Below, piece after piece: positions 5,754 through 29,544 of a DNA stretch of 37,259 bases. The position numbers and the translations under genes were made by a program. This stretch comes from an uncultured Lentisphaerota bacterium (lineage in GTDB: Bacteria; Verrucomicrobiota; Kiritimatiellia; CAIQIC01), in contig CAISWQ010000100.1 in assembly GCA_903889245.1 (NCBI GenBank), positions 1-37,259 on the forward strand, read 5' to 3'. The notes beneath the pieces were generated by a model. That model made no database searches. It was not told where the DNA came from and worked only from the letters and a program-made list of their open reading frames with translations. Position 1 is the first letter of the stretch; each line of letters begins with the position of its first letter.

Positions 5754-5874
5754 GGTTGATGGAGAATGGCTGATGGTTGATGGAAAGAAAAATTTATCTT
5801 TGCCCCATCCGCCATCCGCCATCAACCATCTGCCATCAACCATCTGCCATCCGCCATCCTCTATCCGCTATCAT
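5754..5874. repeat. Inverted array of 7-bp units (CCATCNN / GGNTGAT)
   Basis: The left arm 5754-5781 is four units (GGTTGAT, GGAGAAT, GGCTGAT, GGTTGAT). After an A/T-rich loop, the right arm 5805-5874 is ten units of complementary type, mostly CCATCCG, CCATCAA and CCATCTG. The arms can pair into a long hairpin. The array spans the argC-murC junction and includes the first 34 codons of the ligase gene. It resembles the heptanucleotide STRR repeats known from cyanobacteria in period but not in sequence. Confidence 0.85.
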
Positions 5875-7146
5875 CTGGTGGGCATAGCCGGTGTCGGCAT
5901 GAGCGCGCTCGCGCAGGCGCTCCTCAACGCCGGCCAGGCCGTCACCGGTTCCGACCGCTTCCTCGACCAAGGCCGCGAGAACCTCGCTGTGCTCGAGACG
6001 CTGCGCCGCGCGGGCGCGAAACTATTCCCGCAGGACGGCTCCGGTCTTGACGCGCAGACGACCGCCGTCGTGGTCAGCACCGCGATCGAGCCCGATAATC
6101 CTGACCTCGCTGCCGCAAAAAAGTTTGGTGTGCCGGTGCGCCATCGCGCCGAACTGCTCGCGGAACTGGTCGCCGGGCAACAGCTCATCGCCATCGCCGG
6201 CACCGCCGGCAAGACGACGACGACCGCGCTCGTCGGCCACCTGCTCGCCGAGCTCGGCACCGACCCTAGCGTGGTCAACGGCGGCGTGGTGCTCGGCTGG
6301 CAAAAGCCCGACGCACTCGGCAGCGCACGCAAGGGCCGCTCCGCTTGCTGGGTTCTGGAAACCGACGAAAGCGACCGCTCGCTCCTGCGCTTCACGCCCG
6401 ACTGGGCGATCATCACCAACATCTCCAAGGATCACTTCGAGCTGGACGAGGTCGTCGGACTGTTCCGCCAGTTTGCCGCACAAGTGAAAACCGGCATCGT
6501 CTGCGGCCCCGGCGTCGCCGGGCTCCTCCGCGGCCACACCGCCGCCGCCCTCCATCAGCCATCAGCCATCAACCATTATCCCGTGCCCCTCCCCGGTCGC
6601 CACAACGCCGAGAACGCCCTGCTCGCGGCGACGCTGTGCGAACAGCTCGGCCATGCGCCGGAAAAAATCCGCGCGGCGCTGGCGACCTTCCAAGGCGTAC
6701 AGCGCCGGCTGGAAAAAGTCGGCGCGCGCGACGGCGTGACCATTTTCGACGACTACGCGCACAACCCGGCGAAGATCGCCGCCGCGTGCGCCGCCGTGCA
6801 GCCGGAGCGCGGTCGCCTGCTCGCCGTCTGGCGTCCGCACGGCTTCGGCCCGCTCAAGCTGATGCTGAACGAGCTGACCGAGGCGCTCGCCGGCGTGCTG
6901 CGCCCGCGGGACGGCGTGTGGTTGCTGCCGGTGTTCTACGCCGGCGGCACGACCAGTTCCGCGCTGAATTCCGAGGCGCTCGTCGCGGCGCTGACCGCGC
7001 GCGGCGTTGCCGCGCGGCTCGCGCCGGACTACGCCACGCTGGAAGCCCGGCTGCGCGCGGAGGTGCGGCCCGGCGATGTCGTGCTCGTCATGGGCGCGCG
7101 CGATCCCGACCTGCCGCTCTGCGCCCGCCGGCTGGCCCGTGGTTGA
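5773..7146 (+). CDS. murC: UDP-N-acetylmuramate-L-alanine ligase (MurC type)
   Basis: 457-residue Mur ligase, which joins L-alanine to UDP-MurNAc using ATP at the start of peptidoglycan peptide synthesis. The domains are a Rossmann-like N-terminal domain (YHLVGIAGVGMSALAQ from residue 33), the ATP loop GTAGKTTTT (143-151), the ETDESDRSLLRF and ITNISKDHFE region, PLPGRHNAENAL, and the C-terminal domain with FDDYAHNPAKI. The start at 5773 has a GGAG site 8 bp upstream, but the first 34 residues are encoded by a heptamer repeat array and have no counterpart in usual MurC. A second repeat insertion lies near residues 260-268. No other mur genes are adjacent. The related Mpl recycling ligase cannot be fully excluded. 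Confidence 0.8.
   Translation: MVDGKKNLSLPHPPSAINHLPSTICHPPSSIRYHLVGIAGVGMSALAQALLNAGQAVTGSDRFLDQGRENLAVLETLRRAGAKLFPQDGSGLDAQTTAVVVSTAIEPDNPDLAAAKKFGVPVRHRAELLAELVAGQQLIAIAGTAGKTTTTALVGHLLAELGTDPSVVNGGVVLGWQKPDALGSARKGRSACWVLETDESDRSLLRFTPDWAIITNISKDHFELDEVVGLFRQFAAQVKTGIVCGPGVAGLLRGHTAAALHQPSAINHYPVPLPGRHNAENALLAATLCEQLGHAPEKIRAALATFQGVQRRLEKVGARDGVTIFDDYAHNPAKIAAACAAVQPERGRLLAVWRPHGFGPLKLMLNELTEALAGVLRPRDGVWLLPVFYAGGTTSSALNSEALVAALTARGVAARLAPDYATLEARLRAEVRPGDVVLVMGARDPDLPLCARRLARG
6552..6576. repeat. In-frame heptamer insertion in murC
   Basis: Three perfect heptamers (CCATCAG, CCATCAG, CCATCAA) plus CCAT encode LHQPSAINH. They are of the same family as the array at the start of the gene, 680 bp upstream, and lie just before the conserved GRHN motif. 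Confidence 0.8.
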
Positions 7147-7941: not shown

Positions 7942-7971
7942 CGGTGGCCCCGCACAGCAGCACGGCCGTTT

Positions 7972-8080
7972 TTCCAAGCCTTGGGAAAACGGCCGCTGTG
8001 TTTTCCAGGGCTTGGAAATAGTTCCGCGAAATTTTCCAAGCCTTGGAAAAACCGGGCCGTTGGATTTCCATCCTTCGCTT
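7972..8080. repeat. Array of three palindromes plus a half copy, 31-bp period
   Basis: Copies begin at 7972 (TTCCAAGCCTTGGGAA), 8003 (TTCCAGGGCTTGGAA) and 8034 (TTCCAAGCCTTGGAA), exactly 31 bp apart. A half copy TTCCATCC follows at 8066. The array separates the chromosomal gene at 7237 from the integrative element. Confidence 0.85.
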
Positions 8081-15769: not shown

Positions 15770-16363
15770 ATGGAACGCACAATTGGCAGACCATTTGAGC
15801 CCGGCAATCCTGGACGCCCCAAAGGGACAGTGGGCGGCCGCGCTCGTGCCTTGATGTTGCTCGACTCCATCCTGGCCGAGGAAGAGAACCAGAAACTTCT
15901 TGGTGACGCCATCCGCGCCAGCATCCGGAAAAACCCGATGCTGTTTTTCCGTCAGATCATCATGCCGCTGATGCCGCGTGATCTCACGCTGCGCTTCAAC
16001 GATGGAGGCGTTGTGAAATGGGTTTCGCTGTTGGACTCAATTCCGCGACCGCCATCTCTTACAGCGCCAAGCAAACAGTTGCCGCCCTCCGAAAATCCTC
16101 CGCCGGCGGACCAGCTTACGTGGGAAAAATTGCTACCATTTTTGCTGCTTGCCGGTATTCTCCAGCACGTTCCACGCTGTCACAACACATTGAAAATAAA
16201 GAAATATCAAGTGCACCGTCAGATTTCCAATCTCTGGAAAACACGGCGCGGGATCACGGCAGGAATTTGTTTTTTTTCAGCTTGTCCGGCAGGTAGGTGT
16301 CGAGGACGAAGTTCAGGCCGTGCTTGGCGAACGCCTGTTGTTCAACACGGACGCCGAGCTTGA
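15770..16363 (+). CDS. DUF5681-like phage-associated protein, probably truncated
   Basis: The first about 70 residues look like the DUF5681 type found beside phage terminase genes: RPFEPGNPGRPKGTVGGRAR, then a helical region (LLDSILAEEENQKLLGDAIRASIRKNP, seen in part). After about residue 85 the sequence becomes Pro-rich and unlike a folded protein. The frame then runs through a palindrome (16225-16239) and 110 bp into the convergent topoisomerase gene. I infer that the original 3' end was lost at the element boundary and that the present C-terminus is accidental. The function is unknown; a DNA-binding, terminase-linked role is only an inference. Confidence 0.55.
   Translation: MERTIGRPFEPGNPGRPKGTVGGRARALMLLDSILAEEENQKLLGDAIRASIRKNPMLFFRQIIMPLMPRDLTLRFNDGGVVKWVSLLDSIPRPPSLTAPSKQLPPSENPPPADQLTWEKLLPFLLLAGILQHVPRCHNTLKIKKYQVHRQISNLWKTRRGITAGICFFSACPAGRCRGRSSGRAWRTPVVQHGRRA
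16225..16239. repeat. Single palindrome TTCCAATCTCTGGAA
   Basis: A lone copy of the 15-bp palindrome family, 15 bp from the 3' end of the topoisomerase VI subunit A gene, at the presumed right border of the integrative element. Confidence 0.7.
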
Positions 16364-17387
16364 GCATGTGCTCCAGCGCCTGCTGCCATTCCTTGTGATG
16401 CTGGATGAACGGGTCGTTCTTCAGCGCATCCTTCGCGCGCTTGATGTCGGCCTCCTCGAGCGGATGCGTGGCATCTTCCAGGTCGTAGTCGGCGATGTCC
16501 TGCGGCGTGACGCCGAGGTAGTGCGCCTGCGGCACGCAGAAGAAGCGGTTGATGTGCGCCGCCTGCCCGGAGCCGACCTTGAGCGTGCGGTAGATGTTGC
16601 AGTAGCCGTAGGGGTCGCCATCGGTGAAGGCGAGCACGGGCAGCTTCTGGTCGTCGGCGAGCCGGCGGATAAAGCGGCGGCACGCGCGCGTCGGCACGCC
16701 GCTCATCGAGATCAGGATGCAATGCGCCTTCTCGTAGTAGCGGTGATGCACGAGACGCTGGAAGAGCGACGCGGTCTCGATCACGAGGATGAACCTGGCC
16801 TTGCCGGCGTCGAAGCGCAGGTGCTCGACGCGCGAGGGGATGCTCCACGCACCGGTGCCGAGTTTCGTGCAGTCAATGCGGATGTCCTTGCCCGTGCCGG
16901 GGTCCTGGTCCACGACCACGAGCGGGCCGGTGACGTCGCCGCCGCGCTCCTCCGGGATGTAACCGAGCTGCTCGCGGTTGATGGCGAGCATGGCCTCGAT
17001 ATCGTCGAGGAGCGTGTCGGATTCCGGCTGCTCGTCGAAGCGGCACTCGCCCCAGCTCTTGCTGTTGTAATAGACCTCGCGCTTGCCGGCGATGTCGTCC
17101 TTGTCGAGCAGGTCGTTCTTGGTCGTCGCCAGCAGGCGCATGGACTGCGCGAAGGTCTTGACCGTGTTATAGGAGAGCGTGCGCGTCGCGGTCTTGCCGA
17201 GGATCTCGAAGTGGCCGCGCTTCACGTCGTAGCGGACGTTTTGCAGCGAGCGGATCGGGAAGACCATCTCCGGCTTGCGGTGCTTCTTGACGATATCCTC
17301 GTGGATTTCGCCCGCGACGGTGACGATCTTGTTCGCCGCGGCTTTCTTGGAGATGACTTCGGGAGCGTTGGGAATTGCTTTAGCCAT
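16254..17387 (-). CDS. top6A: DNA topoisomerase VI subunit A (Spo11-like)
   Basis: 377 residues. Catalytic subunit of a type IIB topoisomerase that cuts both DNA strands through tyrosine links. A winged-helix part precedes the catalytic tyrosine in GKREVYYNSK (Y106 or Y107). The Toprim domain carries E204 in FILVIETASLF and the acidic pair D256 and D258 in VLAFTDGDPYG. Length matches archaeal subunit A. The start at 17387 (MAKAIPNAPE) is the first good ATG after the heptamer array. It lies 80 bp downstream of subunit B on the same strand. The enzyme is normal in archaea and plants but sporadic in bacteria, so ancient transfer is likely. Confidence 0.92.
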   Translation of the reverse strand: MAKAIPNAPEVISKKAAANKIVTVAGEIHEDIVKKHRKPEMVFPIRSLQNVRYDVKRGHFEILGKTATRTLSYNTVKTFAQSMRLLATTKNDLLDKDDIAGKREVYYNSKSWGECRFDEQPESDTLLDDIEAMLAINREQLGYIPEERGGDVTGPLVVVDQDPGTGKDIRIDCTKLGTGAWSIPSRVEHLRFDAGKARFILVIETASLFQRLVHHRYYEKAHCILISMSGVPTRACRRFIRRLADDQKLPVLAFTDGDPYGYCNIYRTLKVGSGQAAHINRFFCVPQAHYLGVTPQDIADYDLEDATHPLEEADIKRAKDALKNDPFIQHHKEWQQALEHMLKLGVRVEQQAFAKHGLNFVLDTYLPDKLKKNKFLP

Positions 17388-17397
17388 GGTGTTCCTT

Positions 17398-17464
17398 GTC
17401 AGTGGTCAGTTGTTAGTTGTCAGTGGCTGGATGGACAACTGACCACCCACCACTGACAACTGAC
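17398..17464. repeat. Inverted heptamer array between top6B and top6A
   Basis: The left arm 17398-17425 is four units (GTCAGTG, GTCAGTT, GTTAGTT, GTCAGTG). The right arm 17436-17463 is CAACTGA, CCACCCA, CCACTGA, CAACTGA. The arms are complementary in type and can form a hairpin with a 10-nt loop. The array fills almost the whole 79-bp gap between the two subunit genes. Confidence 0.85.
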
Positions 17465-17466
17465 GT

Positions 17467-19230
17467 TCACAGGTCCAGGTGGGTTTTCTCCAGCATCTTC
17501 TTCAGGTTGCCGACGATCTTGTCCTCTTCCTTGTTGTTCAGCTTGAGGATGTCTTTCAGGCCGAGGGCGAGGTGGGGGATATAGAGTTCGATGTAGCTGC
17601 GCTTACGGGCGGCTTCCAGCTCGCGGTGGCGCTTGTGCAGGAAGACCGAGAGCCGCCGGCCGCACTCCTGCAGGCCGAGCGTCAGCTCGTCAATGATCTC
17701 GCCGTAGCCGGCGATGGCGTCCTTGCTCTCGCTCGTGAACGGCACCCACACGCTCGCCATGTGGACGAGAATGACGACCGGGCCGAGCGGCAGCGCGTCC
17801 TTCGGCTGGCTCAAGCCGTAGCTCTTCCAGTTGACGCCGATGACGCCCTTGGTCATCGCGCACGCGCCGGGCTGGTAGAGCAGCGGCACGCGGTTGGCAA
17901 AGCGCATCACGCGCACCGGCTCCTCGCTGCCGAGGCCCTCGTTCTCCTGCGGGCGTGCGTAGGCGAGGCCGATCTCGATCTGGAACGGATTGCCGCGGTA
18001 AACCGCCGGCTCGCGCGTGACGGCCGTGAAGAAGTCGGCCTTCAGTTCCTTCTGCAACCCCGCGAGAATCTGCGCCTCGCCGATGGGCGAGAGGCAGTCG
18101 GTCGGCGGCCGCATCAGTTTCGTCTCCTGGATCGCCTTATAGAGCGCCTCGCTCTCGTGGTGCGCGATGCGCGTCGGGTTCGTCTTCGGCTCGATGCCGG
18201 CGCGCGTACAGATGTCCAGCGCGGCCTGCGCGCTGACGCGCGAGAAGTCGCCGGCAAGCGCCGAGCGGACCGTCCGGCTTTCCGTGTCCTTGAGCATCTG
18301 CATCAGCATGCCCAGTTCGACGCCGTGGGGGTGCGGCAGAATCTCGTCGGGAATCTTCGGCATCGCCTTCACTGCGCGGTGATAGGTCACGGCGGAAACT
18401 TGAGACTTGAGACCTGAAACCTGAAATTCGGAGGGCTTGGGTTCAGCTTCTGCTTTCAGGTTTCCGGTTTCAGGTTTCAGGTTTCCGCCGCCGCGGTTTC
18501 CGGTTTCCGGTTTCGATTGGAGCTTCAGGCTATAGTGCAGCGTCAGGTGCGGGTTGACGATCGCGCACTGTTTGACGAACTCATCCACCGACTGCTTGCC
18601 GCGCTGGTAGGCGGCCTCCATCTCGATACTGACCGAGGTGCCGTGCTTGGAGGGCTGCGGCTCGCCGTCCGGCTGCCCCTCGGCGTTGACGGGCTGGAAC
18701 GTCGGGAACCAGTCCTGCTCGGTGTCGCTCAAAATCGCGGGCTTGTTCTGGCGTGTATCAATCTGTACGGCGAGCGCGTGCGCGCACTTGGCGTGCTTGA
18801 TCCGCGAGAGGATGCGCGTCGCCGAGCCGGTGGTGAGCTGGCCGTACATGCCCGCCGCGCTGATGCCGATGCCCTGCTGGCCGCGACTCATCCGCAGCCG
18901 GTGAAACTTCGAGCCATAGAGCAGCTTCGCGAAGATTTTCGGAATCTGGTTGCGCACGATGCCCGGCCCGTTGTCGGTCACGGTGACGCGGAACCGCGTC
19001 TCGGCGATCTGCTCCAGCTCGACGGCGATTTCCGGCAGGACGCCCGCCTCCTCGCACGCGTCGAGCGAGTTATCCACCGCCTCCTTGACCGCGGTCAGCA
19101 GCGCGCGCCGCGGGCTGTCGAAGCCCAGCAGGTGCCGGTTCTTCAGGAAGAATTCCGAGACCGCGATCTCGCGCTGTTTGCTCGCCATGCTCTCGGCCGT
19201 CGCCGGAGCGCCGCCATTGCGTTTAGCCAT
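17467..19230 (-). CDS. top6B: DNA topoisomerase VI subunit B (GHKL ATPase)
   Basis: 587 residues. ATPase subunit that closes on DNA and drives strand passage. The Bergerat fold is complete: N box EAVDNSLDACEEAG (N54), G1 DNGPGI (86-91) and G2 RGQQGIGISAAG (116-127). An H2TH-like and transducer region follows (PHPHGVELGMLMQML, GLAYARPQENEG). Residues about 239-279 are an extra linker encoded by heptamer repeats, at a place where archaeal proteins pass directly to the PHPHG motif. The start at 19230 (MAKRNGG) has a GAGGGGAA ribosome-binding site. It is the first gene of the top6B-top6A pair. Confidence 0.92.
   Translation of the reverse strand: MAKRNGGAPATAESMASKQREIAVSEFFLKNRHLLGFDSPRRALLTAVKEAVDNSLDACEEAGVLPEIAVELEQIAETRFRVTVTDNGPGIVRNQIPKIFAKLLYGSKFHRLRMSRGQQGIGISAAGMYGQLTTGSATRILSRIKHAKCAHALAVQIDTRQNKPAILSDTEQDWFPTFQPVNAEGQPDGEPQPSKHGTSVSIEMEAAYQRGKQSVDEFVKQCAIVNPHLTLHYSLKLQSKPETGNRGGGNLKPETGNLKAEAEPKPSEFQVSGLKSQVSAVTYHRAVKAMPKIPDEILPHPHGVELGMLMQMLKDTESRTVRSALAGDFSRVSAQAALDICTRAGIEPKTNPTRIAHHESEALYKAIQETKLMRPPTDCLSPIGEAQILAGLQKELKADFFTAVTREPAVYRGNPFQIEIGLAYARPQENEGLGSEEPVRVMRFANRVPLLYQPGACAMTKGVIGVNWKSYGLSQPKDALPLGPVVILVHMASVWVPFTSESKDAIAGYGEIIDELTLGLQECGRRLSVFLHKRHRELEAARKRSYIELYIPHLALGLKDILKLNNKEEDKIVGNLKKMLEKTHLDL
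18395..18517. repeat. In-frame inverted heptamer array in top6B
   Basis: 18395-18429 holds five units (GAAACTT, GAGACTT, GAGACCT, GAAACCT, GAAATTC). 18454-18517 holds inverted-type units (TTTCAGG and TTTCCGG, eight in all, with one 8-bp G/C interruption). The segment keeps the frame and encodes KPETGN-type and FQVSGL-type peptides in subunit B. Confidence 0.85.
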
Positions 19231-19315
19231 AAGTTCCCCTCGCCAAAAAGTTCGCGGGACGTTAGCGAAAACCGGCACGCATTCCAAGCGCCGTGCAACC
19301 GCCTAAAAATTTTTT

Positions 19316-21691: not shown

Positions 21692-22816
21692 ATGAAAACT
21701 GTCTGGTTCTGTCTCGCGGTCGGGCTGGGCCTCGCGGTCGCGCCGGTGCCGGCGGAGACCCGGCCGCCGCTCCCGGGCTCACGCGAACTGTCGGCAGAGA
21801 TGGTGCGCAAGCTGGCCGAGGCCGGCGACGCCGCTTCACAATACAACCTTGGCTACAGTTACTACCGCGGCGGGGGCCGGCCGCAGGACTATGCCGCCGC
21901 CGCGCTGTGGTTCCGCAAGGCCGCCGAGCAGGGCGTTTTCCAGGCGCAGTTCGCGCTCGCCATCTGCTACCGCGAGGGCCACGGCGTCACGCGCGACGAG
22001 GTCGAGGCCGGCCGCTGGCTGCGCAAAGCCGCCGACCAGGGCGACGCCAAGGCGCAACTGCTGCTCGCCACCTGCCACCAGACCGGCCGCGGCGTGCCGC
22101 AGAGCGTGAGCGAGGCGGCGCAGTGGTTCCAAAAAGCCGCCGAGCAGGGCGTGGCGCGCGCGCAATATGAACTCGCCGTCTGCCTCCGCGAAGGCCGTGG
22201 CGTGCCGAAGGATCCCGCCGCCGCCGCCCAATGGCTGCAACGCGCGGCGGAACAGAACGACGCGCGGGCGCAGTTCCTCCTCGGCGTCCACTGCGAGGCC
22301 GGCGACGGCGTGCCGCAGAACTATCCCGACGCGGTCAAGCACTTCCGCGCCGCGGCCGCGCAGGGCCTCGCCGCCGCGCAGTACAACCTCGGCGTCCTCT
22401 GCGCCCACGGCCGTGGTGTGCCGCAGGATCACGCCGAGGCCGTCCAATGGTTCCGGCTCGCCGCCGAGCAAGGCGACGCGCAGGCCCAGTTCAACCTCGG
22501 CCTCTGCTGCGAGAAGGGCCAAGGCCTCAAGCCCGACCTCGCCGCCGCCGTGCAATGGTATCGCCGCGCCGCCGAACAGGGCGACGTCCGCTCGCAGCTC
22601 AACCTTGGCGCCTGCCTCGCCAAGGGCCAGGGCCTCGCGCGCGATCCCGTCGAGGCCTATGCCTGGTTCAACCTCGCCGCCGCCGCCGGCGACGCGAACG
22701 CCCTCGCCGCGCGCGACTCGCTTCAGAAACTGATGACGCCCGAACAACTCGCCGAGGGCCAGCGCCGCGCCACGGCCCTCGCCGCCAAGGTCACTCCGCC
22801 GGCCCCACCGCGCTGA
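21692..22816 (+). CDS. Exported Sel1-repeat (TPR-like) protein
   Basis: 374 residues with a signal peptide (MKTVWFCLAVGLGLAVAPVPAE). About nine 36-residue Sel1 repeats run from residue 35 to 345, each with the pattern A-x-x-G-x-x-x-A-Q-x-x-L-G-x-x-x-x-x-G-x-G-V and a following A-x-x-W-x-x-x-A-A-E-Q-G. Such solenoids act as protein-binding scaffolds. The start at 21692 gives the signal peptide and has GGAG 7 bp upstream; the open frame before it is not needed. A palindromic operator overlaps its promoter, so the gene is probably regulated by a LacI-family protein. The partner is unknown. Confidence 0.88.
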   Translation: MKTVWFCLAVGLGLAVAPVPAETRPPLPGSRELSAEMVRKLAEAGDAASQYNLGYSYYRGGGRPQDYAAAALWFRKAAEQGVFQAQFALAICYREGHGVTRDEVEAGRWLRKAADQGDAKAQLLLATCHQTGRGVPQSVSEAAQWFQKAAEQGVARAQYELAVCLREGRGVPKDPAAAAQWLQRAAEQNDARAQFLLGVHCEAGDGVPQNYPDAVKHFRAAAAQGLAAAQYNLGVLCAHGRGVPQDHAEAVQWFRLAAEQGDAQAQFNLGLCCEKGQGLKPDLAAAVQWYRRAAEQGDVRSQLNLGACLAKGQGLARDPVEAYAWFNLAAAAGDANALAARDSLQKLMTPEQLAEGQRRATALAAKVTPPAPPR

Positions 22817-27276: not shown

Positions 27277-27922
27277 GCCGAAGGACCATAGGACGAACAA
27301 GACCAAGACGACCGCCGCGAATCAGCCGTCGTGTGAGTCCTCTCCGTCCCATGCTTCGTTCATCCCGGCCCATGGCGGCTATGAACAACTCCTCTCCTTC
27401 CAGAAAGCCCGCATCGTCTATGACGGCACCGTGAAATTCTGCGACCGCTTCGTGAATCCGCGCTCCCGCACTCACGACCAGATGGTGCAGGCGGCCCGCT
27501 CCGGGAAACAAAATATCCTCGAAGGCAGCCAGGCCAGCGGCACCTCCAAGGAAACCGAAATCAAGCTCACCAACGTGGCCCGGGCCAGCCTGGAGGAACT
27601 CCTCGAAGACTATCGCGACTACCTCCGCGTCCACGATCATGCGCTCTGGGACAAAGATTCCAAGGAAGCGCTTTTTGTGCGCAAGCTGGGTGCGCAGAAA
27701 ACGGCGACCCATGAGTCCTATAGGACCTACTTTGAAACCCGCCCGCCGGAGATCGTCGCCAATATCCTGATTTGTCTCATTCACCAGACCAACTACCTGC
27801 TCGACCAGCAACTCCGCCGCCTCGAACAGGATTTCCTGAAAGAAGGCGGCCTGCGCGAGCGCATGACCCGCGCCCGCCTCGCCGCCCGCGCCCGGCAACA
27901 GAGGGGAGGCCCGCATGAGTGA
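27269..27922 (+). CDS. Four-helix-bundle protein with suffix domain
   Basis: 217 residues from ATG 27269 (a TTG two codons earlier is also possible). Residues about 35-110 match the S23/four-helix-bundle family: [19 protein letters not shown] and [18 protein letters not shown], then [14 protein letters not shown]. The C-terminal part, with [30 protein letters not shown], fits the four-helix-bundle suffix domain, followed by a basic tail. Relatives include the diversity-generating retroelement Avd proteins and 23S rRNA intervening-sequence proteins. Its role in restriction systems is not established. It overlaps hsdM by 8 bp and the next small ORF by 8 bp. A duplicated hsdM end flanks it, suggesting it was inserted between hsdM and hsdS. 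Confidence 0.85.
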
Positions 27923-28082: not shown

Positions 28083-29544
28083 ATGGCCAGAAGTGCGACT
28101 CGGCGATTTGTCCGAGGTGATTACAAAGGGAACGACACCAACGTCGCTCGGTTTTCGTTTTACCGATACGGGGATCAACTTTGTGAAATCGGAGTCGGTC
28201 ACTTTCGATGGATGGATCGATCGTTCAAAGTTCGCTCGAATCGACACGGGAACCCATGAGGCACTCAAGCGATCCCAACTCAAAGAAGGAGATGTTCTCT
28301 TTTCGATGGCGGGCGTTTATATCGGAAAAACGGCCGTAGTTCCCAAAGACATTCTTCCCGCCAACACCAATCAAGCGGTCGGAATCGTCCGCCTCGACCA
28401 AACGCGTGCTCACCCCCGATTCATCGACTACTTCCTTCGCAACCCGACCTATAACCTTTTCCTCAACAACTTGATTTCACAGTCAGCGCAGCCGAATCTG
28501 AATCTCGCGGAGATACGAAACCTGCCTATCGCGCTTCCACCCCTCGCCGAGCAAAAAGCCATCGCGCACATCCTCGGGACGCTGGACGACAAGATCGAGT
28601 TGAACCGGCGGATGAACGCGACGCTGGAGGCGATGGCGCGGGCGCTGTTCCAGAGCTGGTTTATTGATTTTGACCCCGTTCGGCGCAACGCCGACCGGCC
28701 TCAAAATCAACCCTCACCCGCCGCTGCGCGGCACCCTCTCCCAGTGGGAGAGGGCCGGGATGAGGGGCGCTCCGCGCTACTTCCAAGCCTTGGAAAAACA
28801 CCTGCCGCCGCCTTCCAAGCCTTGGAAAATACCGCCGCCCAACCTTCCAATGCTTGGAAAAACCCGGCGCAAACTTTCCAATCCTTGGAACTCGACACCC
28901 TCTTCCCCGCCGCCTTCCAAGATTCGGAACTCGGACACATCCCGAAAGGGTGGACGACTGGGAAACTCGGCGACATCGGCACCAACTCCCGGCGCGGCGT
29001 CCAACCCAGCGAGATTGCGCCGAACACGCCTTACATCGCCTTGGAGCACATGCCGCGCCGTTGCATCGCGCTCGGTGATTGGGAAGAATCAGCCGATATT
29101 GCCAGCGGCAAGTCCGCCTTTAAGAAAGGGGAAATCCTCTTCGGTAAGCTGCGCCCCTACTTTCACAAAGTTGGCGTCGCTCCGTTCGATGGGGTCTGCT
29201 CCACTGACATCCTCGTCCTCGCGCCGAAAAGCCCCGAGTGGTTCGGCTTCCTCCTCGGCCATGCGAGCAGCGACGCCCTGATTCAATTCACCGACCTCGC
29301 ATCGACCGGCACCAAGATGCCGCGCACCAATTGGAGCGACATCAACTCCTTCAAAGTTGCCGTGCCGCCCAAGCCCATCGCCGCAGCCTTCACGAAACTC
29401 GTTCAGCCGAAACTCGACTGCATCCACGCCAACCTCCACCAATCCCGCACCCTCGCGACGCTGCGCGACACGCTGCTGCCGAAGCTGCTGGGCGGGGAGT
29501 TGAAAGTGGAAGGAGCTTCCAACAACACCGGGGCTAACGCATGA
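28072..29544 (+). CDS. hsdS: Type I restriction-modification specificity subunit
   Basis: 490 residues. Sets the DNA target of the complex with two target-recognition domains. TRD1 spans about residues 3-150 (EWPEVRLGDLSEVITKG) and the first conserved helix about 160-205 (PPLAEQKAIAHILGTLDDKIELNR, LFQSWFIDFDPVR). TRD2 begins at about 285 (DSELGHIPKGWTTGKLGDI), and a second helix ends the protein. Between DFDPVRRNADRPQNQ and LDTLFPAAFQDSELG about 60 residues (214-273) are encoded by two repeat families and have no place in ordinary HsdS. TRD1 is visibly lower in GC than hsdM, as expected for exchanged domains. The start overlaps the small ORF; the stop overlaps the next start (ATGA). Confidence 0.92.
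   Translation: MAGEWPEVRLGDLSEVITKGTTPTSLGFRFTDTGINFVKSESVTFDGWIDRSKFARIDTGTHEALKRSQLKEGDVLFSMAGVYIGKTAVVPKDILPANTNQAVGIVRLDQTRAHPRFIDYFLRNPTYNLFLNNLISQSAQPNLNLAEIRNLPIALPPLAEQKAIAHILGTLDDKIELNRRMNATLEAMARALFQSWFIDFDPVRRNADRPQNQPSPAAARHPLPVGEGRDEGRSALLPSLGKTPAAAFQALENTAAQPSNAWKNPAQTFQSLELDTLFPAAFQDSELGHIPKGWTTGKLGDIGTNSRRGVQPSEIAPNTPYIALEHMPRRCIALGDWEESADIASGKSAFKKGEILFGKLRPYFHKVGVAPFDGVCSTDILVLAPKSPEWFGFLLGHASSDALIQFTDLASTGTKMPRTNWSDINSFKVAVPPKPIAAAFTKLVQPKLDCIHANLHQSRTLATLRDTLLPKLLGGELKVEGASNNTGANA
28711..28766. repeat. G/C-rich nested palindrome inside hsdS
   Basis: The inner stem CCCTCTCCC-AGT-GGGAGAGGG (28734-28754) is perfect. Outer arms CCCTCACCC and GGGATGAGGG extend it to 56 bp. It is the same element type that flanks the DUF559 insertion in hsdR. 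In frame it encodes PSPAAARHPLPVGEGRDEG. Confidence 0.85.
28781..28890. repeat. In-frame array of four 15-bp palindromes in hsdS
   Basis: Copies start at 28781, 28813, 28845 and 28876 (TTCCAAGCCTTGGAA twice, TTCCAATGCTTGGAA, TTCCAATCCTTGGAA), spaced 32, 32 and 31 bp. They encode LPSLGK, FQALEN, SNAWKN and FQSLEL. The native HsdS motif that follows (FQDSELG, 28915-28929, TTCCAAGATTCGGAA) happens to look like a degenerate copy. Confidence 0.9.

Follow-up and report, generated by a model that had tools for sequence, protein, structure and literature searches.

The hairpin at 17398-17464 of the window (the whole 37,259-nucleotide stretch of DNA analysed) probably derives from a small selfish element of the intervening sequence (IVS) type but lacks the gene of such an element, and by analogy it is best read as an mRNA counterpart of the 23S rRNA IVS of Coxiella, which is likewise armed with heptamers. 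The full element is about 450-550 bp long and comprises an upstream array of about four to five heptamers (G-rich strand first), one four-helix-bundle gene (S23p/IVP) and the array inverted, seated in sense orientation between co-directional genes. PF05635 genes are linked to inverted period-7 arrays that are nearly absent from controls, the link recurs in other phyla, and unit and period go with the protein subfamily. Empty, bare and gene-bearing states turn over at one junction. The hairpin lies between the genes for the two subunits of topoisomerase VI, and the following features of the window bear on it.

5754-5876: third hairpin, with units GATGGTT / CCATCNN, located at the murC 5' end; the same arms occur on a full element in a congener (L186, genome G003)
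6552-6581: one-armed CCATCAG array inside murC
16254-17387, minus strand: topVIA, topoisomerase VI subunit A (PF21180, E 7e-58), the downstream host gene
17398-17425: left arm, four heptamers, GTCAGTG, GTCAGTT, GTTAGTT and GTCAGTG (TRF period 7)
17426-17435: loop, 10 nt, GCTGGATGGA
17436-17464: right arm, CAACTGA, CCACCCA, CCACTGA, CAACTGA and a final C (TRF period 7)
17467-19287, minus strand: topVIB, topoisomerase VI subunit B (PF09239, E 1e-54), the upstream host gene
18390-18514: second hairpin, with units GAAACCT / AGGTTTC, in frame within a variable topVIB linker; its unit is that of a full element of the same genome (L195)

The original prediction, made from the sequence of the window, that GTCAGTK units face CAACTGA units across a 10-nt loop was confirmed by the sequence, by TRF and by RNA folding, in which 17398-17464 reached -34.5 kcal/mol (z -3.3, with none of 200 shuffles equally stable). 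The arms are not complementary unit for unit and, because paired units are unlike at the K position, both appear to be drawn from one degenerate unit. The two further arrays noted then, at 5754 and 18395, are both real (z -3.6 for 5754-5876 and z -6.2 for 18390-18514), with the correction that the latter lies in frame inside topVIB and is not intergenic. An Rfam search of the window returned zero matches. The left-arm unit of 17398-17464 matches that of a full element in the same genome (L184, GTCAGTT), so that with GAAACCT on L195 and the CCATC type on L186 the units of the window all occur as arms of full elements. Inverted ends held in common with a fuller element of the same genome, as in a MITE, are found by way of L184 and L195, both assumed to be autonomous; to our knowledge, PF05635 proteins have no transposase activity. 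The inverted terminal stem of an IVS is present in the hairpin and in the full elements, an S23p/four-helix-bundle ORF between the arms is present in L184 and L195 and absent from the 10-nt loop of the hairpin, and the location is between topVIB and topVIA and not in 23S rRNA. As the loop holds no gene, membership of the hairpin in this class rests on its unit, polarity, position and neighbours.

Other repeats were observed in and around the window. The palindrome TTTTCCAAGCCTTGGAAAA is present in tandem copies at 7970-8052 and 28780-28890, and TTTTCCA..TGGAAAA palindromes resembling it are found upstream of topVIA in relatives including L035, L038 and L043. About two copies of a 108-bp tandem repeat at 22432-22636 lie in an ORF and possibly encode a Sel1-like protein repeat. 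A weak PF05635-like match (24 bits, below the cut-off) at 27389-27604 (L200) falls in an ORF of about 220 aa, and similar long ORFs are also present in congeners. At the murC junction of one congener (G002:C135, L317) a different inverted array, of the AATTCGAA type, replaces the CCATC units.

The topVIB-topVIA junction varies among relatives. Where it holds no insert the gap is 2-31 bp (L028, L030, L047), and bare heptamer hairpins are found in the genome of the window and in L022, L023, L026 and L031. The first three of these hairpins are homologous, CCAGC being common to their loops (topVI coding strand), with GTCAGTK as the unit in the window versus GTCAYTK in L022 and L023, a change that affects both arms. 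The hairpin of L031 is built of GAAACTT units. That of L026 has discordant arms, so the arms do not strictly co-evolve, and strictly concerted change was rejected. A four-helix-bundle gene with an AGCACCC heptamer array occupies the junction in L032; L046 appears similar from a reading of the sequence with topVIB not placed upstream; L034 has a four-helix-bundle gene flanked by inverted period-6 arrays; and L024, L025 and L027 carry a GxxExxY gene with period-8 arrays at the junction. These gene-bearing inserts suggested that the elements are built around their genes. The hairpin inside topVIB is present in L022, L024, L026, L032 and L040 and absent from L025, L027 and L034. In L042, the space between topVIB and topVIA contains an ORF similar to REP-associated Y1 transposases, and the site therefore accepts several kinds of insert. 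At the leuC-leuD junction, a full CCATC element is present in G003, the site is empty in G001, and one-armed remnants of different types remain in G000 and G002; no clear target-site duplication was found there.

The turnover at these junctions bears on an explanation by function, under which selection keeps the arrays as regulatory binding sites (acting in translation, in termination or for a global regulator), with the four-helix-bundle protein as the regulator that uses them. Earlier authors read the Geobacter repeats in this way (PMC2700814), TAACTGA repeats stand upstream of start codons (PMC4679880), and the intergenic hairpin of the window is stable (z -3.3) and retained in several species with its units altered in both arms. 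We nevertheless consider a regulatory origin unlikely, since the site is empty in close relatives, an insertion lies within the coding sequence of topVIB, the neighbouring genes have no common function, and gene and arms are present or absent as one.

The reading as a shell of a one-gene element draws on the genomic setting of the protein family. Of the 28 PF05635 loci in the genus (four genomes), 25 have inverted repeat flanks, the period being 7 in most. Phylum-wide, strict inverted period-7 flanks were found at 54 of 94 four-helix-bundle (PF05635) loci and an inverted flank of any kind at 76 of the 94, as against none of 1500 random segments and one of 1153 control ORFs under the strict definition; the single positive ORF is an artefact of the murC hairpin of the window and the array at 6552. 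The random segments also gave 138 inverted hits that lacked period 7, perhaps from runs of N in scaffolds, and only the period-7 count was used. Some four-helix-bundle subfamilies have arrays of period 8 or 6. Among plasmid loci taken as a non-exhaustive sample of BLAST hits from six other phyla (Cyanobacteria, Pseudomonadota, Bacillota, Bacteroidota, Spirochaetota and Chloroflexota), inverted arrays of period 7 or 8 were present at 20 of 22, comprising 13 of 15 in a first set (Cyanobacteria, Azospirillum) and all seven in a second (Bacillota, Bacteroidota, Spirochaetota, Chloroflexota, Cyanobacteria). Among these loci are four-helix-bundle genes with inverted arrays in CRISPR-Cas operons of cyanobacterial plasmids (cas6-cas4, cas10-cmr3 and cas1-cas2; L307, L311, L313 and L342), where such inserts could be mistaken for Cas accessory genes.

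PF13366 (GxxExxY nuclease-like) genes have inverted repeats at 21 of 22 loci, with a spacing of 8-11; their arrays are of period 8-10, and genes and repeats are a parallel class of one-gene elements. At L148-L170 and L230-L258, short repeats (CACAGAG, GCCAAG, CACGGAT, ACAGGATT) spaced 8-10 bp apart flank these genes in inverted sets, each of about three.

Of the four-helix-bundle elements of the genus, 16 had both flanks called; 15 of these stand between two genes co-directional with the element gene, and none of the 16 is antisense within a same-strand gene pair. G-first polarity is seen in 65 of 76 elements and, by left-arm composition, in all ten hairpins; as the first arm of an inverted array is identical on both strands, the host-strand orientation of bare hairpins is uninformative and the G-first polarity alone counts. 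Unit similarity tracks protein identity (r 0.31, Mantel p 0.0005), with no trend for the reversed unit, and stands at 0.64 above 60% protein identity versus 0.41 below 20%; under 40% it is only weakly tied to the protein (r 0.07). This correlation may be explained as well by common descent of gene and arms as by recognition. The arms mostly have 4-5 units, and five chains are present in each of the entries 2rld and 2gsc (XCC0516), the two solved relatives, the Xanthomonas S23-like protein being a reported homopentamer (PMC4990558).

These features suggest how the elements might work. By analogy with the Coxiella 23S rRNA IVS, the arms would pair in the transcript and then be cut by RNase III, the paired arms serving as its substrate and so limiting harm to the host transcript. 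The four-helix-bundle protein, a pentamer in the solved relatives, may bind the arrays, each subunit contacting about one unit. Loss of the gene would leave bare hairpins such as that of the window, which may be moved in trans.

The arrays were counted in 1.02 Mb (about a fifth) of the 5.26-Mb draft metagenome-assembled genome, with thresholds set by shuffling and cross-pairing controls. The search bore out the abundance of arrays, with 59 of period 7 at a score of 12, and 24 when the score is raised to 16, against none in block-shuffled sequence, and seven is clearly the leading array period in this sample. The inverted form fared differently. It had been put forward as a shared design, and proved to be that of a minority: 33 of 42 period-7 arrays have no inverted partner and seven have a clear one, and among inverted periodic hairpins period 8 (n=6) is as frequent as period 7 (n=6), with others at 6, 9 and 12. 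Inverted geometry as a rule and seven as the sole inverted period were accordingly both rejected. The two outcomes named beforehand as refuting the idea, rarity of the arrays and equal commonness of other periods, thus hold in part for inverted hairpins but do not hold for arrays as such. Five bare period-8 hairpins of the GGAGTGNT family were observed in the same genome (L011:7045, L107:9890, L109:18324, L111:2659, L116:4877) with G-first polarity, and no gene-bearing version of this family was identified.

The units themselves are diverse, numbering dozens in all (GTCAGTT, GTTTCAG, CCATCNN, TCAGAGG, TCGAACA, CCCTCGY and AAATCAT among them), and some arrays switch unit midway with the phase kept. 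One dispersed sequence family was rejected, the units being too many. The three unrelated units of the original prediction have thus become dozens of distinct ones, which are not wholly unrelated, since they follow the protein subfamily and the common-profile alignment of arrays scored 2.64 versus 2.05 +/- 0.08 after column permutation, a weak common core of TC/GA in a score that related arrays inflate. For about half of the 42 sampled arrays, some full element of the genus gives a match equal to or better than that of the best among 20 permutations, and the CCCTCGY and CGCGCGC units have no matching full element among those of the genus. The proposal of a common generating process in place of one spreading sequence was upheld, in that many 7-bp units are ends of one kind of small element, with a period that goes with the protein family. 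The predominance of one-armed arrays and the units without a full element count against the shell reading.

The same predominance agrees with replication slippage, whereby a polymerase favouring 7 bp would create heptamer arrays de novo, template switching would turn them into hairpins and the protein genes would be incidental; many bacteria have an excess of heptamers, for which slippage has been proposed (PMC4692102). It seems improbable here, as it predicts neither one protein family flanked by arrays in seven phyla, nor a period that differs between protein families, nor a fixed G-first polarity, and it is further weakened by the near absence of strict inverted arrays from random segments and control ORFs. 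Mobilisation by a host reverse transcriptase that an Avd-like protein assists, or by a Y1/REP transposase with the hairpin as its substrate, is very improbable: PF05635 is related to Avd of diversity-generating retroelements (PMC10053308) and Y1 genes are commoner in genomes carrying PF05635, but the genome of the window has zero RVT_1 matches, 24 of 41 carrier genomes also have none, and nine of the 41 are without Y1_Tnp, so that neither is an obligate mover and an obligate partnership is largely refuted, even if a divergent reverse transcriptase could have been missed by the model.

An element-based origin would matter beyond this genome. Reports of heptamer repeats go back decades for cyanobacteria, with Xanthomonas, Geobacter and Beggiatoa following later, and we know of no accepted origin for them. 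A one-gene element with array ends would explain where these widespread bacterial repeats come from, and a gene family at their centre makes the question testable through binding, RNA cutting and movement. It would also give a role to a large family annotated merely as "four helix bundle protein", connect free genomic repeats to rRNA intervening sequences, and suggest a route by which bacterial operons and proteins gain hairpins and repeat-coded linkers. In open-access full text no link of free heptamer arrays to four-helix-bundle genes was found, a scope that leaves priority uncertain. We give an even chance to the wider proposal that most bacterial heptamer arrays (STRR, GGGAATC, TAACTGA and others) belong to a single pan-bacterial class of IVS-like elements with one gene, as their ends, shells or lone arms. 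Under it, a four-helix-bundle protein in oligomeric form would read the tandem units, and the protein would set unit length, with 7 nt usual among four-helix-bundle proteins, 6 or 8 nt in some of their subfamilies and 8-10 nt in the parallel class with GxxExxY proteins.

The elements differ from REP/REPIN sequences, which depend on Y1 (TnpA_REP), in occurring in genomes without Y1_Tnp, and from diversity-generating retroelements in the lack of RVT_1 matches in the genome of the window. They resemble the IVSs of Coxiella and Leptospira in having one ORF of the same family within inverted arms. The Coxiella 23S rRNA IVS has an S23p ORF, a 28-bp inverted terminal stem and 2-3 tandem GACAGAT heptamers upstream of the ORF, whose number depends on the strain, and RNase III cuts at the first repeat (PMC4990558). 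Unlike these, the elements described here sit in protein-coding operons and linkers and not in rRNA; a genome has many different units, with plentiful bare hairpins and one-armed arrays, and cutting by RNase III would be expected by analogy. Xanthomonas also has inverted heptamer pairs, 70-75 convergent pairs of GGGAATC per genome (PMC4692102), and encodes the solved S23-like XCC0516, but has one dominant unit. Class 1-3 sites of Geobacter metallireducens are tandem octa- and heptanucleotide repeats paired on opposite strands (PMC2700814), though read as global regulator sites with no linked protein family. The TAACTGA heptamer of Beggiatoaceae is intergenic, has a TCAGTT core and is shared with cyanobacteria and Bacteroidetes, but forms direct repeats nearly always, with 1 of 170 inverted (PMC4679880). 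Cyanobacterial STRR, including GGGGAYT of Nostoc, are likewise dispersed intergenic tandem heptamers in many copies and unit families; they differ in being, in the open-access literature, free repeats without an associated gene, and in their host, which here is not cyanobacterial and has its relatives in Kiritimatiellota. The parallel with STRR drawn at the outset is nonetheless apt, because heptamer arrays on cyanobacterial plasmids flank genes of the same protein family, PF05635.
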